DNA of 32,730 nt. Source: Kofleriaceae bacterium. Lineage in GTDB: Bacteria > Myxococcota_A > Polyangia > Haliangiales > Haliangiaceae. The translations under genes were made by a program, and so were the position numbers. Below are positions 10,654-17,244 of the stretch, one piece after another. Under the pieces are notes generated by a model. It had not been told where the DNA came from and did no database searches. It saw only the letters and a list, made by a program, of their open reading frames with translations. Each line of letters opens with the position of its first letter. Position 1 is the stretch's first letter. The stretch lies in contig JAGPCO010000085.1 of assembly GCA_018058095.1 (NCBI GenBank), positions 1-32,730 of the forward strand, written 5' to 3'.

Positions 10654-11748
10654 ATGTCGGTGCGCGGCCAGCTGTCGACCATGCCCGCCGAGGACGTCCT
10701 CGAATGGGCCGGCCGGCGCAAGGTCGCGCTGGTGGTGACGGTGACCGGGGCCGACGCGGTGCGCAGCCTGGCGCTGGCGGGCGGGCAGGTGCTGTGGGCG
10801 GCGTCGAGCCGCGCCGAGGAGCAGCTCGGCACCGTGCTGTCGGCGTCGGGCCACCTGGCCGATCGCGGCCTGACCGACTCGCTCGAGGCCCGGGCCGAGA
10901 CCGGGGTGCCGCTGGCCAAGGTGATGCAGATGGCCGGCCTGGTCAGCGAGGACACGCTGGTCGAGGTGCTGGCCACCAAGATCCGCGAGGCGGTGACCGA
11001 CGTGGTCAGCTGGACCGACGGCGAGTTCGAGGTGGTGCCGCGGCCCAACCCGGCCGGCGCGGGCGTCGCCGCCGGCATCCCGGTCGAGGTGTGCCTGGCC
11101 ATCGCCCGGCGTCGGCGCGAGCGCCTGGCCAAGGCGGCCGCCCTGATCGGCTCCGATGACGTCTCGTTCCAGGTCAGCGCCGGCACCGCCGCGCCACCGG
11201 CGACCCCGGTCGAGCCGCCGGTCGACGCCGGACGCCTGTGGCGCCAGGTCGGCCAGGGCCGCACCGTGGCGCAGCTGGCCGCCGGCACCGGCGGCGAGCG
11301 CTTTGCCGTGCTGGTCACCCTGACCGACTGGGTCAACGCCGGGGCGCTGACGATCGACCGCCGGCGCCGGGCCCGGACCGATTCGGCGCACGAGCTGATC
11401 GCCGGCGCGCGCGGCCGGCTGCGCCAGGGGGATCGCGTCGGCGCGCTCGACCTGGCCCGGCGCGCGCTGCTGCAGCAGCCGGGTGACGTCGAGGTCCGGC
11501 GCGCGTTCTCGGCGGTGCAGCGGGCCCGCGTCGCCGAGGTCGCGCGCACGCTGCTGGCCCAGCACGTGGTGCCGCGCCGGACCGGGGTCGAGTCGGTCGC
11601 CGAGCTGGGCCAGTTCGAGCGCGAGCTGGTGCTGCGGGTCGACGGTCGGTGGGACCTCCTGTCGCTCATCCGCACCGTGCCGTCGCGCGAGGCCGAGGCC
11701 CTGCTGGCGTTCGTGCGCCTGGCCGAGCTGGGAGTGGTCACCCTGTGA
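10654..11748 (+). CDS. DUF4388-domain protein (PatA-N-like)
   Basis: The 364-residue protein begins with RGQLSTMPAEDVLEWAGRRK, typical of the DUF4388 domain common in delta-proteobacterial and cyanobacterial signalling proteins, followed by GGQVLWAAS and a GVPLAKVMQMAGLVSEDTL segment like that in many such proteins (about residues 60-120). The C-terminal half is largely helical, with a basic helix RRRRERLAK and a TPR-like stretch (RQGDRVGALDLARRALLQQPGDVEVRRAF, near 255-280) that suggests protein binding. No catalytic or DNA-binding motif is seen. It is the first gene of a three-gene operon. The ATG is fixed by the TATGCT element 6 nt upstream; no SD is present. Confidence 0.85.
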   Translation: MSVRGQLSTMPAEDVLEWAGRRKVALVVTVTGADAVRSLALAGGQVLWAASSRAEEQLGTVLSASGHLADRGLTDSLEARAETGVPLAKVMQMAGLVSEDTLVEVLATKIREAVTDVVSWTDGEFEVVPRPNPAGAGVAAGIPVEVCLAIARRRRERLAKAAALIGSDDVSFQVSAGTAAPPATPVEPPVDAGRLWRQVGQGRTVAQLAAGTGGERFAVLVTLTDWVNAGALTIDRRRRARTDSAHELIAGARGRLRQGDRVGALDLARRALLQQPGDVEVRRAFSAVQRARVAEVARTLLAQHVVPRRTGVESVAELGQFERELVLRVDGRWDLLSLIRTVPSREAEALLAFVRLAELGVVTL

Positions 11749-11761
11749 GCCGGGGGCGGCG

Positions 11762-12586
11762 ATGAGCGAGCGGCCGTCGGCCTCGGCGGCCGAGGCCGAA
11801 CTCGACGGCGGCGTGGTGCCGGCCGCGCTCGACCGGTCGCGCCTGCTGCCGCGCAGCGGCATCGGCGTCGATGGGGGCCACCTGGTCATCGCCCCGCCGG
11901 GCAACCCGGCCATCCGGCTCGACGCTCGCCTGCTCGACCGGGTCGAGCTGATCGGCCGGTCCCCGACCGGCGCGGTCGCCGCCTCGGTCGCGGCCACCGG
12001 CGGCGCGGCGGCGGCGGCGCTGTCGTGGGTCCCGGGTGGGGTGTTCGCGTGCGCGCTGCTGGCGTACCTGGCGCACGAGCGCTTCTCGGAGGCGCGCCGG
12101 CGGGCGCGCAGCCGCGACCTGCTGCTGGCGCTGGGGGACCTCGAGGTGGCGCTGCACGTCGTCGACGGACCCGACGCGGCCAAGCAGGTGGCCGACCAGC
12201 TCGCGCCGTACACCCGCGGCGCGCCGATCGGTCGGCCCGAGGTGTACGAGGACGCGCGCCGGCGCTTGCACGCCCAGGCCGCCGGCAAGGGCGCGCAGGT
12301 GGCGCGGCGCGAGGTCGAGCGCGCCCTGCTGGTCGGGGCCGAGGTGGTGCACGTGCGCGACGGCTTCCTCCAGGTCGGCCAGGTCGCGTTCCGGACCGAG
12401 GAGGTGCGCGAGTACGCCCTGCGCGGGGCCAACCTGCCGCTGCCGGGTGGTCGCCTCCTGCAGGCGGCGATGGGCCTGCTCATCGTCGCCGCCGAGGAGC
12501 GCGCCCGCAGCGGCGAGGATCTGACGGCGCTGGCCAAGCGGATCCACGCCTACGAGGAGTGGTCGGGCCGCGCGGCCGGGCGATGA
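11762..12586 (+). CDS. Membrane-associated protein of unknown function
   Basis: I do not recognise this 274-residue protein. The ATG at 11762 follows the DUF4388 gene by 13 nt with GGGGGCGG just upstream. Its N-terminal 60 residues look soluble (SGIGVDGGHLVIAPPGNPAIRLDARLLDRVELIG). A hydrophobic Ala-rich stretch (about 73-101, AAAAALSWVPGGVFACALLAYLA) could cross the membrane once or as a hairpin. The rest is charged and helical, with repeated EVERALLVGAEVV-type segments and a final AAEERARSGEDLTALAKRIHAYEEW helix. It overlaps the next gene by ATGA, so the two products are made together and may act at the same membrane site (inference). Confidence 0.75.
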   Translation: MSERPSASAAEAELDGGVVPAALDRSRLLPRSGIGVDGGHLVIAPPGNPAIRLDARLLDRVELIGRSPTGAVAASVAATGGAAAAALSWVPGGVFACALLAYLAHERFSEARRRARSRDLLLALGDLEVALHVVDGPDAAKQVADQLAPYTRGAPIGRPEVYEDARRRLHAQAAGKGAQVARREVERALLVGAEVVHVRDGFLQVGQVAFRTEEVREYALRGANLPLPGGRLLQAAMGLLIVAAEERARSGEDLTALAKRIHAYEEWSGRAAGR

Positions 12587-14670
12587 CCGTCGCCGGCACG
12601 CCGGGCGGGGACCGGGCCGAGGTCGTGGCGGCTGGCCCCGGCCCGTGGATCATCGTCGGCGCCGGCTTCACCGGCGTGGTGCTGGCCCGGCGCCTGGTCG
12701 CGGCCGGGGCGACGCTGTGGGTGGCGCGCCGCGATGGCGCCGCGGCGACGGCGCAGGCGGCCGAGCTGGGCGCCGCCCGCGGCCTGGCGGTCGACCTCGA
12801 CCATCCTGGTGACGGCGGCGGTCCGCCGTGGCCGGCCTCGGCCATCGTCGTCGATCTGGCCCCGCCCGGGCCGAGCCCGGGCGCGCGCGAGGAGGCGCTG
12901 CTGGCCCGCGCCGGCGGCGCGGCCATCGTGTACGTGTCGTCGACCGGGGTGTACGGGGCGGGCGGCGGCGCCTGGGTCGACGAGCGCTGGCCGCTGGCGC
13001 CGCTCGGCCCCAGCGGCGTGGCCCGGGTCCGGGCCGAGGCGGCGATCGGCGCCGGCGTCGGGCCCGACCAGCGCTACGCCATCCTGCGCCCGGCCGGCAT
13101 CTACGGCCCGGGCCGCTCGGTCGCCGATCGCCTGCGCGCCGGCAGCTATCGCGTGATCGGCGACGGCACCGCGGTCAGCCGCATCCACGTCGACGATCTG
13201 GCCAGCGCCATCGTCGCCGCCGGCGCGCGCGCGCCGCGCGGCGCCATCTACAACGTGGCCGACGACGACCCGGCCCCCTCGGGTCAGGTCGCCGACGCGG
13301 TCGCGGCCCGGCTCGGGCTGCCGCCGCCGCCGCGGGCAAGCGCGGCCGAGGTCGGGGCCGAGGCCGCGGCCATGCTCACCGCCGATCGCCGCGTCGACGC
13401 CGGCCGGATCCAGCGCGAGCTGGGCGTGCGCTGGCGCTACCCGAGCTGGCGCCTTGGCCTCCTGGCCGGGCTCTCGCTGCTGCTGCTGGCCGCCTGCGCC
13501 CCGCGGCAGCCTGGCGTCGGCGTGGTCGCCGCGCCGGGCGAGCTCGACCTGGCGCCGGCGCCGATCCGCGACGAGCGGGCCTACGTCCTGACCTGGGGCG
13601 GCGCGATCATCGGCCACGCTCGCGAGGTCCGGACCTGGCGCGGTGGTCGGCTGCACCTGACCCGGTCCGAGCACGTCCGGGTCCAGCGCCTCGGCGCCGA
13701 GGTCACCACCACCACCACCATCCGGGTCGAGGCCGACCACGCGCTCCGAGCCGACCGGATCGAGGTCGAGCAGGTCGACGCCGGCGCGCGCTGGCACGGG
13801 GTCGCGACCCGGGCCGACGATGGTCGCTGGCGGCTCGACGACGGCAGGCCGGGGCCGGTCCGGACGGCGCCGGCGACGGCCGTCCCGGCCGAGCTGGTGC
13901 CCGATCTGGTCGCGCGCGACCAGCGCTTCGTCGGGCCGGTCGTGCTGGCCGGGCACCAGCTGGCCCTGGCCGACGGCGTGGTCACTCGCGCCGGCGACCT
14001 CGCCATCGCCCGGCTCGACCTGCCCGGCCCGCCGCCGGCCTCGAGCCGGTCGGTCATCACCCTGGGCGTCGACGGCACCCCCGCGATCGTGGCCGGGGCC
14101 GACGGGGTCACCGCGACCGCGGTCGACCCGGCCGCGCCGGCGCCAGACTTCGTCGCCATCGACGTCGTCGCCGCCGCCGCGGTGCCGGTGCCGCCGGCGC
14201 TGGGCCCGACCACGCTGGTCGCGCTGTGGGTCGACGGCCGCCGGCTCGGCGCCGGCCGGCCCGCGCTCGGGCCACCCACACCGTCGGCCGCGCTGGCCTC
14301 GGCCCGCGCCGTCGCCGCCGCGGTCCACGCCGCCCTCGACGCCTCGGCCGACCCCGCTTCCGGGGTCGGCGATTGCACCAGCTACGCCACCGCGTTCGCC
14401 AGCGCCGCCCGCGCCGTCGGGCTCGAGGTCCGGGTCGCGACCGGGTGGGTCCGCGACGGCGACCGTCTGTGGCGGCACCGCTGGAACCAGGTCCAGCTCG
14501 GCCAGCGCTGGCTCGACGTCGACGCCAGCCGGGCCGAGGCACCGGCGACGCGGCCGCTGTACCCGCTGGTGCTGCACGGCGCCGAGGCCGACGCCGTCCG
14601 CGCCGCCGGCGCCGCCCTGGCCGCGGCCGTGCCCGTCGTCGCCGCCGCGCCGCGCCTCGTCGTGCCGTGA
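12583..14670 (+). CDS. Fusion: NAD-epimerase-like SDR, lipoprotein signal, transglutaminase-like domain
   Basis: One uninterrupted 695-residue frame. Residues 20-290 are an extended SDR like YeeZ/NAD-epimerases: nucleotide motif GAGFTGVVLARRL, VYVSSTGVYG, LRPAGIYGPGRS, SRIHVDDLASAI and an ELGVRWRYPSW end. A lipoprotein-type segment follows, LGLLAGLSLLLLAAC, with C305 as a lipobox cysteine. A beta-rich region (310-560) then precedes a transglutaminase-like domain with C598 (GDCTSYA), H632 (HRWNQV) and D647 (WLDVDAS). Either a cytoplasmic enzyme is tethered to a periplasmic transglutaminase, or an internal GTG at 13426 (residue 282, MRWRYPSWR plus the hydrophobic stretch) makes a separate lipoprotein. 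Starts by ATGA overlap. The periplasmic half may crosslink or cleave proteins. Confidence 0.8.
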   Translation: MTVAGTPGGDRAEVVAAGPGPWIIVGAGFTGVVLARRLVAAGATLWVARRDGAAATAQAAELGAARGLAVDLDHPGDGGGPPWPASAIVVDLAPPGPSPGAREEALLARAGGAAIVYVSSTGVYGAGGGAWVDERWPLAPLGPSGVARVRAEAAIGAGVGPDQRYAILRPAGIYGPGRSVADRLRAGSYRVIGDGTAVSRIHVDDLASAIVAAGARAPRGAIYNVADDDPAPSGQVADAVAARLGLPPPPRASAAEVGAEAAAMLTADRRVDAGRIQRELGVRWRYPSWRLGLLAGLSLLLLAACAPRQPGVGVVAAPGELDLAPAPIRDERAYVLTWGGAIIGHAREVRTWRGGRLHLTRSEHVRVQRLGAEVTTTTTIRVEADHALRADRIEVEQVDAGARWHGVATRADDGRWRLDDGRPGPVRTAPATAVPAELVPDLVARDQRFVGPVVLAGHQLALADGVVTRAGDLAIARLDLPGPPPASSRSVITLGVDGTPAIVAGADGVTATAVDPAAPAPDFVAIDVVAAAAVPVPPALGPTTLVALWVDGRRLGAGRPALGPPTPSAALASARAVAAAVHAALDASADPASGVGDCTSYATAFASAARAVGLEVRVATGWVRDGDRLWRHRWNQVQLGQRWLDVDASRAEAPATRPLYPLVLHGAEADAVRAAGAALAAAVPVVAAAPRLVVP

Positions 14671-14823
14671 CTCGACAAGTCCAGACTCGACAATGCCCGT
14701 GCCCGTGCCCGATCGCTCGACATCCGCGACCGCCGCAAGGCCGTCGCCGCCAGCGTCCTGACGCCCGCGCTCGAGTTGCTCGAGCGCGTCGTCGCCATGC
14801 TAGCCCGTCTCGCCGGAGCCTGA
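14671..14823 (+). pseudogene. Probable C-terminal remnant of a four-helix-bundle (S23/IVP-like) protein
   Basis: Immediately after the fusion gene's stop, the same frame reads on to TGA at 14821. It ends in a coding-looking helix, DRRKAVAASVLTPAL then ELLERVVAMLARLAGA. That pattern resembles the last helix of four-helix-bundle proteins of the 23S rRNA intervening-sequence family. No usable start codon lies in frame and the N-terminal helices are absent, so it is called a remnant. It sits between the two arms of a 20-bp inverted repeat. The family call is by resemblance and tentative. Confidence 0.3.
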
Positions 14824-14864
14824 CCGCCCAGATCGGGCACGGGCACGGGCACGGGCACGGGCAC
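14695..14864. repeat. 20-bp inverted repeat with GGGCAC hexamer array
   Basis: The left arm (14695-14714) is GCCCGT twice followed by GCCCGATC. The right arm (14831-14850) is its exact reverse complement and continues as five tandem GGGCAC units through 14864. The arms are 116 bp apart and enclose the putative four-helix-bundle fragment. The structure could fold into a long RNA stem or mark the ends of a small non-autonomous repeat. CTCGACAA also repeats directly at 14671 and 14686. Confidence 0.75.
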
Positions 14865-14879
14865 GGGGCAGGTCGCTGC

Positions 14880-14900
14880 AAACGCGGCTGCGCCGCGTTT
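14880..14900. terminator. Bidirectional hairpin terminator
   Basis: AAACGCGGC-TGC-GCCGCGTTT is a perfect 9-bp stem with a 3-nt loop (a flanking C-G pair extends it), ending in short T runs on both strands. It lies between the convergent ends of the fusion gene at 14670 and the BNR-repeat gene at 14913, so it can serve both. Confidence 0.75.
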
Positions 14901-14912
14901 GTCAGCGTCCTG

Positions 14913-16262
14913 CTAGCGCCGGCGCCGGCGCCGGCCGGCCAGGGCGGCGACCAGGCCGGCCGCGGCGAAGCTGCCGGCGGCGCCGCCGCCATCGCAGCAG
15001 CCGCCGGCGCCGCCGCCGCCGCGGGCGTCGGGCCCGATCGCCCCGGCGTCGACCGCGCCGCCGGCGCAGGCCGGAGCAGCGGCGCCGAACTGCTCGCGCA
15101 GCGACGGCCACAGCTGGGCCTCGCACATGTCGTGCTGCGGCGAGCCGACCGGGCAGCTGACCGGCCCGGCCAGCTCGGCGAAGCGGAAGGTCTTGGTCCA
15201 GGTCAGGCCATCGGCCGAGCGCGCCAGCGCCTTGAAGTCGGGATCCCAGTTGGTCCCACACGCGAGCAGGGTGCCGTCGCCACGCTGGTCGAGGCAGGCG
15301 GTCTTGGGTGCGCCGGGCACCGGCGCCAGCGGCGCGACGCCGTCGGCCGAGCGGTACAGCCCCGACATGGTGGTCGCCACCAGCACCTCGCCGCCGGCGC
15401 GGAGGAGCACGCGGTTGATGGGATCGGTGGTGACCAGCACCTCGGTCCAGGCCTGGCCGCCGTCGGTCGAGCGGTACAGGCGATCGCCGCCGGGCGGGTT
15501 GGCGCCGGACGAGCGCAGGTACAGGCGATCGGGGTTGCCGGGGTCGACCGCCTCGACCGTCACCAGCGGCGTCGTGTGCAGCGCGACGCCATCGAGCGGC
15601 AGCGGTGGTGACCAGGTGTCGCCGCCGTCGTCGCTGCGGAAGGCCTGGGTGATGGGCGGCGCCAGGCCGCCGTCGTCGGCCGCGCTCGACACCTGGTAGC
15701 CGCTGATGTAGACCCGCGCCGGCTGGCTCGGCGCGACCTTGACGCTCTTCCACCACATCGTCGGCGAGTTGCGCCCGCGCGCGACGAAGGTGCGGCCGCC
15801 GTCGGTCGAGCGGTACAGGTCGTTGTCGTCGCCCGACGCCGCGGTCGCCACCCACAGCTCGCCGTCCGGGCCGAGCTCGATCGCGTCGACCCACTTGCCG
15901 GCGAAGCGGCCGGGGTCGGCCTTGGGCGCGTCCTCGGTCGCGGTGGTGAACGAGCAGCCGCCGTCGCGGCTGACCCGCAGGCCGTTGAAGGTCGTGGCGA
16001 AGATGGTGCCGTCGGCGGTGACGGCGTACTTCGGGTCGAACATGCCGCCGTAGCCGATGTTGCCCTCGCAGATCCACCGGAACGAGCAGCCGTCATCCCG
16101 GCTGATGAGCAGCCCGAAGGTCGACGACAGGTAGATGTCGGTGCTGGCGCCGGGCTGGGTGTGCACCCCGGTCGTCGCCGGGGGCCGCCCGTTGCCGCGC
16201 GCCGGCGCCGACCCGGTCAGGACGACCGCCGCGGCGGAGGCAAGCACGAGGCGCCGGTTCAT
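14913..16262 (-). CDS. BNR-repeat beta-propeller protein with MYXO-CTERM sorting signal
   Basis: The ATG at 16262 gives 449 residues beginning MNRRLVLASAAAVVLTGSAPARG, a Sec signal peptide. The body carries repeated BNR/Asp-box motifs (SRDDGCSF, SRDGGCSF, RSTDGGRTF, RSDDGGDTW, RSTDGGQAW, RSADGLTW), which indicate a sialidase-like beta-propeller; no sialidase catalytic arginine triad is identifiable, so binding rather than hydrolysis is likely. The C terminus is Gly/Ala-rich with GGCCDGG, a hydrophobic helix (FAAAGLVAALAG) and RRRRRR, which fits MYXO-CTERM surface anchoring. It is transcribed toward the terminator at 14880, from a TACGGT element 6 nt before the ATG. Confidence 0.9.
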   Translation of the reverse strand: MNRRLVLASAAAVVLTGSAPARGNGRPPATTGVHTQPGASTDIYLSSTFGLLISRDDGCSFRWICEGNIGYGGMFDPKYAVTADGTIFATTFNGLRVSRDGGCSFTTATEDAPKADPGRFAGKWVDAIELGPDGELWVATAASGDDNDLYRSTDGGRTFVARGRNSPTMWWKSVKVAPSQPARVYISGYQVSSAADDGGLAPPITQAFRSDDGGDTWSPPLPLDGVALHTTPLVTVEAVDPGNPDRLYLRSSGANPPGGDRLYRSTDGGQAWTEVLVTTDPINRVLLRAGGEVLVATTMSGLYRSADGVAPLAPVPGAPKTACLDQRGDGTLLACGTNWDPDFKALARSADGLTWTKTFRFAELAGPVSCPVGSPQHDMCEAQLWPSLREQFGAAAPACAGGAVDAGAIGPDARGGGGAGGCCDGGGAAGSFAAAGLVAALAGRRRRRR

Positions 16263-16268
16263 GCCGCC

Positions 16269-16290
16269 ACCGTACCGCGGAATTCGCGGT
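16269..16290 (-). promoter_or_regulatory. Leaderless promoter (-10 TACGGT) with adjoining palindrome
   Basis: On the minus strand TACGGT (16274-16269) is followed by 6 nt and the ATG at 16262. Directly upstream lies the palindrome ACCGCG-GAATT-CGCGGT (16274-16290), which shares one base with the -10 hexamer. A regulator bound there would block RNA polymerase. Confidence 0.5.
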
Positions 16291-16336
16291 CGCAGCACGG
16301 GAGCCGACCGGGGCGACTTCCGTGGTACCTGGCGCC

Positions 16337-16357
16337 ATGTCCTCCGTGTCCTCGTGA
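16337..16357 (+). other. Six-codon leader ORF coupled to the JmjC gene
   Basis: ATG at 16337 reads MSSVSS and stops at TGA 16355-16357, forming a GTGA overlap with the likely GTG start of the downstream oxygenase. The oxygenase has no Shine-Dalgarno, so translation of this short ORF could deliver ribosomes to it. The hexamer GTACCT ends 6 nt before the ATG. Confidence 0.35.
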
Positions 16358-17244
16358 GCCCCGGTCTGGTCGCGCTCGGGGTGCCGCTGCCGCTGGAGGT
16401 GGTGCGCGATCAGGTGCAGCGCGGCGCCTGGTGGGTCGGCCACGAGCCGTCACTCGCGGTCGACGTGCTGCGCGGCCTGCCGCGGCTGAGCTCGATCGAG
16501 GCGCTGCTGGCGGCCTGGCCGGCGCCGATCACCGCCTCCGTGCGGGACCCGGCCGGGCGCGGCGACGAGGAGCGCTCGGTCGGAGTGTCGGCGACCGACG
16601 CGCCCATGCTGCTGGCCAGCGGCATGAGCCTGCTGTTCGACCAGGTGCAGCGCTACCTGCCCGAGCTGCCGCCGTGGCTGGTGGCGCTGCGGGGCGAGCT
16701 CGGCCTGTCGGCGCTGACCCAGCAGCGCTGCATGGTCTACGCCACGCCGGCCGGCGGCGGCACCGGCCCGCACTTCGATCACAACATCAACGTCGTGGTG
16801 CAGCTGACCGGGCACAAGACGTGGTGGCTGGCGCCCAACCACCACGTCCGCAACCCGCTGGCCCGGCACGCCATGGGGCTGCCGGTCGAGCCCGAGCTCG
16901 AGTCGTACGCCGCCCTGCCGATGCCGCTCGAGCTCCCGGCCGACGCCACCCGCGTCGAGCTTCGGCCCGGCTCCGTCCTGATCGTCCCGCGCGGCACCTG
17001 GCACGCGACCCGGGCCGACTCGATGGCGCTGTCGCTCAACTTCACGTTCACCGCGCCGACGTGGATCGACCTGTTCTCGGCGGCGCTACGCAGCCGGCTC
17101 GCGCTGTCGGCCGGGTGGCGGGCGTGCGCCTGTCCGGCCGAGCCGGGCGAGCTGGCCCAGCTCCTGCGCGAGCTGGCGGACGACGCGCCACACTGGTCGG
17201 CCGCCGACATCCTGGCGGTGACCGAGGCCGAGGCCGAGGCGTAG
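16354..17244 (+). CDS. JmjC/cupin-type Fe(II)/2-oxoglutarate oxygenase-like protein
   Basis: From the GTG at 16354 the product has 296 residues. It carries the iron-binding HxD motif in GTGPHFDHNINVVVQ (H140, D142) and the distal histidine in PRGTWHATRAD (H217), with KTWWLAPN between them, as in cupin_4/JmjC ribosomal-protein hydroxylases (YcfD/RoxA type). An RPGSVLIVPRG strand precedes the last iron ligand. A C-terminal helical tail (LAQLLRELADDAPHWSAADILAVTE) resembles the winged-helix-like ends of that family but is short. The substrate is not determinable; a ribosomal protein or small molecule are options. The long open frame upstream to 16135 has no good start. Confidence 0.85.
   Translation: MSPGLVALGVPLPLEVVRDQVQRGAWWVGHEPSLAVDVLRGLPRLSSIEALLAAWPAPITASVRDPAGRGDEERSVGVSATDAPMLLASGMSLLFDQVQRYLPELPPWLVALRGELGLSALTQQRCMVYATPAGGGTGPHFDHNINVVVQLTGHKTWWLAPNHHVRNPLARHAMGLPVEPELESYAALPMPLELPADATRVELRPGSVLIVPRGTWHATRADSMALSLNFTFTAPTWIDLFSAALRSRLALSAGWRACACPAEPGELAQLLRELADDAPHWSAADILAVTEAEAEA

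Follow-up and report, generated by a model that had tools for sequence, protein, structure and literature searches.

A candidate lineage-specific fusion of an SDR gene and a transglutaminase-like lipoprotein gene in a Kofleriaceae bacterium

The Bradyrhizobium cytochrome b/c1 protein FbcH is reportedly a polyprotein that is split at an internal signal sequence. FbcH resembles the gene described here in that an internal signal parts an N-terminal portion from an exported enzyme. It differs in its parts, two subunits of a membrane complex, whereas those of the present gene are a lipoprotein and a soluble SDR that are not known to belong to a common complex. To our knowledge, a lipoprotein signal placed behind 290 cytoplasmic residues is unusual, and no usable report of a fusion with such an internal signal came out of a literature search. 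A different route to two products is seen in Salmonella, where internal in-frame starts give proteoforms that may differ in location (PMC11005335), and in E. coli start selection is possible without a Shine-Dalgarno (SD) sequence (PMC7043885). Like the Salmonella cases, the gene studied here could give two products of unequal length and different location from one frame; unlike them, the shorter of its products would be an entire exported enzyme.

Both halves of the gene have separate counterparts. PDB 3ius, an uncharacterized conserved protein and atypical extended SDR, aligns to residues 20-290 (E 2.1e-33) and shares with the SDR half the glycine-rich NAD motif and a C-terminus of the form ...LGVR..YP..R, but it terminates soon after the aligned region, while the last SDR helix of the fusion continues into a lipoprotein signal. 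The transglutaminase-like (TG) lipoproteins encoded beside SDR genes in the same order (for example L040:4749-6038 and L049:9268-10569) have the same domain order, the lipobox Cys and the GDCT and RHRW motifs at 29-36% identity; they are separate genes, most with a conserved promoter of their own, whereas the TG part of the fusion is joined and its promoter is gone.

Other long SDR frames in the class are either joined to other domains or simply open upstream. An SDR relative at L060:1622-3280 (minus strand) shares one frame with a tryptophan 2,3-dioxygenase domain (PF03301, E 1.8e-23), so that C-terminal fusion of this type of SDR has a precedent within the class. Those at L065:528-1778 and L061:2012-3295 carry C-terminal extensions of 131 and 156 aa with no Pfam match; by eye, the L065 extension is cupin-like and that of L061 resembles a worn relative of the L060 dioxygenase. 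In L060 and L065 a related SDR is lengthened at the same C-terminal point as in the fusion, but their extensions look cytoplasmic and follow without a signal peptide between, where the fusion has a lipoprotein signal.

The locus lies in a stretch of 32,730 nucleotides (the window) from an uncultured, myxobacterium-like Kofleriaceae bacterium, and its features are collected in Table 1. An earlier note had described an SDR, a lipoprotein signal and a transglutaminase-like domain in one frame, and this layout is borne out: translation gives 695 residues with no internal stop, and Pfam places Epimerase at residues 108-226 and Transglut_core at 593-648, both over the curated cut-offs. The positions it had assigned to GTG 13426, C305, C598, H632 and D647 were likewise correct; the GTG encodes V282, and the C305 codon is at 13495. 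GC content by codon position is gene-like in the SDR half, in the TG half and over the junction, with third-position values of 0.95 and 0.96 for the two halves. The frame is open further 5', from 12025, with codon bias in it starting only near 12560-12583, and the ATG at 12583 overlaps the stop of the upstream gene w8b as ATGA. The fusion is present once in the host genome, which has no orthologue of either half elsewhere; the second SDR match there is a 40% paralogue that relatives also have. The fusion is known from one assembly only, on a 32.7-kb contig of a 227-contig draft genome.

Table 1. Features of the fused gene and its neighbours (positions in the window)
Feature	Position	Strand	Basis or remark
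DUF4388 gene w8, same direction, in conserved neighbourhood	10654..11748	+	Pfam, relatives
Upstream gene w8b, no Pfam family, homology from near 11810, start approximate	11483..12586	+	ORF, Pfam, relatives
Fused ORF: SDR / internal lipoprotein signal / transglutaminase-like protein	12583..14670	+	Translation, Pfam, codon-position GC
SDR domain, residues 1-290, NAD-binding GAGFTG	12583..13452	+	Pfam, PDB 3ius alignment, relatives' alignment
GTG (V282), most plausible independent lipoprotein start	13426..13428	+	Cys would be 24th residue; no Shine-Dalgarno support
Hydrophobic segment LGLLAGLSLLLLAAC, residues 291-305, lipobox LAAC	13453..13497	+	Hydrophobicity, alignment, AlphaFold
Lipoprotein part: beta-rich N-terminal domain and transglutaminase-like domain	13495..14667	+	Relatives' alignment, AlphaFold, fold search
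Transglut_core with C598 (14374), H632 (14476), D647 (14521)	14359..14526	+	Pfam, alignment
BNR-repeat gene w9, convergent; adjoins SDR 3' end in relatives	14913..16298	-	Pfam, relatives

The SDR half scores 38-42 bits against the PF01370 (Epimerase) profile (cut-off 20.9), and its glycine-rich NAD(P) motif occupies residues 26-31, with G26, G28 and G31 invariant. It contains no Lys at all, so the classical YxxxK catalytic pair is absent, and we therefore term it an atypical SDR. The TG half reaches 43.5 bits against PF01841 (cut-off 23). Across 14 transglutaminase proteins of relatives, C598 and H632 of the Cys-His-Asp triad are invariant and D647 nearly so, and the GDCT motif, the RHRW motif and the lipobox Cys show no variation either; profile and triad together place this half in the transglutaminase-like family as a predicted enzyme. 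Its AlphaFold model is fair (mean pLDDT 79.6), and a fold search with it gave only weak matches, one of the beta domain to DUF1089 (2h1t) and one to a putative cysteine protease (3isr).

The junction between the halves is abrupt. SDR homology extends at least to R290, which is invariant in 16 SDRs, and TG homology starts within the next few residues, so that the protein reads LGVRWRYPSWRLGLLAGLSLLLLAAC with neither spacer nor stop. In relatives, stand-alone SDRs end in LGVxLRYPSWR and a short tail, terminating about 3-23 residues past R290, and TG genes open with GTG or ATG and an Arg codon, after which a short hydrophobic core leads to the Cys. Since these SDRs stop just beyond the point at which the fusion enters the hydrophobic core of the lipoprotein, the junction coincides with a natural domain border. 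Residues 291-305 form the most hydrophobic 15-mer in the entire protein, and RWRYPSWRLGLLAGLSLLLLAAC fits the bacterial lipobox [LVI][ASTVI][GAS]C after a positively charged stretch and a hydrophobic core. In the whole-chain AlphaFold model, which was built on an alignment of SDR rows only and is therefore poor in the TG half, residues 289-305 are one unbroken helix in which the last helix of the SDR turns into the core of the signal. This signal is not N-terminal in the 695-aa frame, and would be so only if GTG 13426 initiates.

How were the two halves arranged before they shared a frame? The fusion was not found again among the genomes of the genus (16), family (30), order (35) or class (317), which makes it 1 of 317 class genomes searched, and viral contigs gave no match. 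A search of genome contigs returned one SDR-only locus. The comparison with relatives that the earlier note had called for found separate genes, and at thirteen loci of the order these are adjacent, on opposite strands and start to start. Divergent SDR/TG pairs occur at ten loci of the genus (L035-L042, L045, L046) and, in outgroups, at L047, L048 and L049. A same-strand tandem of w8b and SDR, as in the window, is found in G010, G016, G025 and G017, where the SDRs have their own stop about 15-20 residues past the equivalent of R290; G016 and G025 have their TG gene elsewhere. The w8b-SDR pair with its ATGA overlap is thus a layout shared with relatives, and specific to the window is a TG gene that lies between SDR and w9 and in frame with the SDR. 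Although w8b belongs to no Pfam or NCBIfam family, conservation in the neighbourhood is highest for this gene, with identities across the family mostly at 63-77%.

Trees set both halves of the fusion as sisters to the SDRs and TGs of the genus, the TG half on a long branch, and the two halves are probably vertically inherited orthologues and neighbours, not a foreign insertion. Several narrower accounts fared poorly in this comparison. Derivation of the TG half from the genus g2, to which the top tblastn score (G025) pointed, was rejected, because its neighbour in the tree is the g1 clade, although its branch is long; the idea that the TG half evolved unusually fast after the fusion was dropped, as the trees show similar lengthening of both halves; and the idea that the SDR gene had been inverted between divergent partners lost weight with the w8b-SDR tandems. 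The TG gene is instead regarded as having changed place with respect to the w8b-SDR pair, and the type of recombination is left unclaimed.

Most TG genes of relatives also bring their own promoter. A conserved element, TTTGCG-N19-TACGAT (or TTGCG/TTGCC with N18), stands upstream of them: in the regions L035-L055 of relatives, 293,829 bases in all, its pattern has 12 matches, all at TG 5' ends and pointing into TG, and it occurs at four further TG loci (L071, L073, L080 and L082). One match in L075 has a different spacing and lies away from any TG gene. Instances of the form TTTGCG-N19-TACGATCATTTTTC stand at the TG 5' ends of L035, L036, L038-L042, L044-L047, L051, L071, L073, L080 and L082. 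At the promoter-bearing TG loci, except L046, the start codon follows the TACGAT (-10) box by only about 6-10 nt, and for this reason the TG mRNA is likely to be leaderless across the family. No promoter of this type is present in the window, where matches with two mismatches are at chance level. Expression of the TG part would thus seem to rely on transcription that comes through w8, w8b and the SDR.

Together, these comparisons lead us to lean, by a modest degree of belief, towards a lineage-specific gene fusion that arose through local rearrangement of two neighbouring genes. A TG gene that stood divergently beside the SDR with its own promoter, as it does in relatives, would have moved behind the SDR onto the same strand, losing promoter and start codon on the way. 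Comparison with relatives shows the in-frame join at the natural C-terminus of the SDR, and from it we infer the order of events. Ribosomes starting at 12583 would then encounter no stop and make a 695-aa chain. The SDR would fold in the cytoplasm, its last helix running into the 15-residue hydrophobic stretch preceded by Arg residues, and this stretch could act as an internal lipoprotein signal that takes the transglutaminase-like part to the periplasm. The chain might remain a membrane-anchored fusion with its N-terminus inside; alternatively, C305 might be lipidated and signal peptidase II might cut the chain into an ordinary lipoprotein and an SDR that keeps a hydrophobic tail. The full form of the latter idea, a working polyprotein of divergent-pair origin in which the last SDR helix became the lipoprotein signal and signal peptidase II yields a tail-anchored SDR and a lipidated periplasmic TG-like enzyme, is rather doubtful.

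Could the lipoprotein have a start of its own inside the SDR? The earlier note had proposed that the stop of the SDR was lost while an internal start was retained, and this order of events is not supported, as the relatives' genes are divergent and not tandem and the promoter and start of TG are absent from the window. Because these are missing and the codon at 13426 is a Val conserved in SDRs, an internal start would be new and not retained; a local rearrangement, yielding one cytoplasm-to-periplasm fusion with an internal lipoprotein signal, is more likely than the loss of a stop with a retained start. A newly nested gene, in which the TG lipoprotein comes mainly from initiation at GTG 13426 (or ATG 13372) on the same mRNA and the long fusion is a minor or additional product, is a tentative reading, possible though on the improbable side. 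The note's case for GTG 13426 stands as far as the signal goes: counting the Cys, the signal of the product would span 24 residues, with MRWRYPSWR as its positively charged n-region and a perfect lipobox, a textbook signal peptide that would be superfluous for a purely full-length product. At some nine loci the TG gene of relatives likewise has GTG as its start and Arg as its second codon (VR...), and the Salmonella proteoforms and the SD-free start choice in E. coli introduced above provide precedents. The codon itself says less. The V282 position is Val in 12 of 17 free-standing SDRs of relatives, encoded by GTC in seven and GTG in three, and 21 of the 78 Val codons in the fused ORF are GTG, so conservation within the SDR explains the residue. 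Anti-SD pairing at 13426 (-3.1 kcal/mol) offers no advantage, being equalled by 38% of ORF positions, a score that is not decisive as strong SDs are rare among the genes of the window. The leaderless-looking start of relatives would not transfer to the interior of an mRNA, and no promoter-like site was found in 11600-15100, which is a weak test.

The fusion might instead be spurious or on its way out. That a chimeric join in the assembly or a base error masks a stop between genuinely separate genes is improbable, although the junction occurs in one draft genome only, relatives keep the genes apart, a single base change would turn in-frame codons such as TCG into a stop, and shortly after the gene, at 14694-14851, a perfect 21-nt inverted repeat forms part of a (GGGCAC)n run. 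Only one random join in three would keep the frame, and such a join would seldom fall exactly on a domain border, and a missed indel would leave the halves in different frames. The flanks are chromosome-like, with the w8b-SDR pair common to G010, G016, G025 and G017 and w9 convergent as in relatives; coding bias is uniform, and both halves occupy the same phylogenetic position. Decay, by which the fusion would be an accident en route to loss with one or both parts no longer working, seems very unlikely. The loss of the conserved promoter and start of the lipoprotein would suit it, as would the divergence of the TG half, which is merely 35% identical to genus relatives that average 62% among themselves. 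Codon bias nevertheless stays strong over the 695-codon frame, in which the lipobox and the catalytic residues are intact, and tree lengthening of the fusion relative to the genus clade is similar in the two halves (TG 2.34 versus about 1.4, SDR 0.78 versus about 0.5), so there is no sign of relaxation specific to TG.

The fused gene is a real-looking, one-off gene fusion, not a new kind of system. If real, neighbouring and separately controlled genes, found in related layouts among relatives, became one gene that spans two cell compartments. Its wider impact is limited by its resting on one genome, and the gene offers an easy way to ask whether bacterial lipoprotein machinery can use a signal that is preceded by 290 residues.

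Two minor features lie downstream. The arms of the inverted repeat, 14694-14714 and 14831-14851, are built of TGCCCG/CGGGCA units and stand 116 nt apart, just 3' of the fused gene and before the BNR gene, as a possible terminator or rearrangement-prone site. Beyond them, the longest frame of a JmjC_2/cupin-like gene (16135-17244, plus strand) overlaps the start of the opposite-strand BNR gene, and its true start is probably further downstream.
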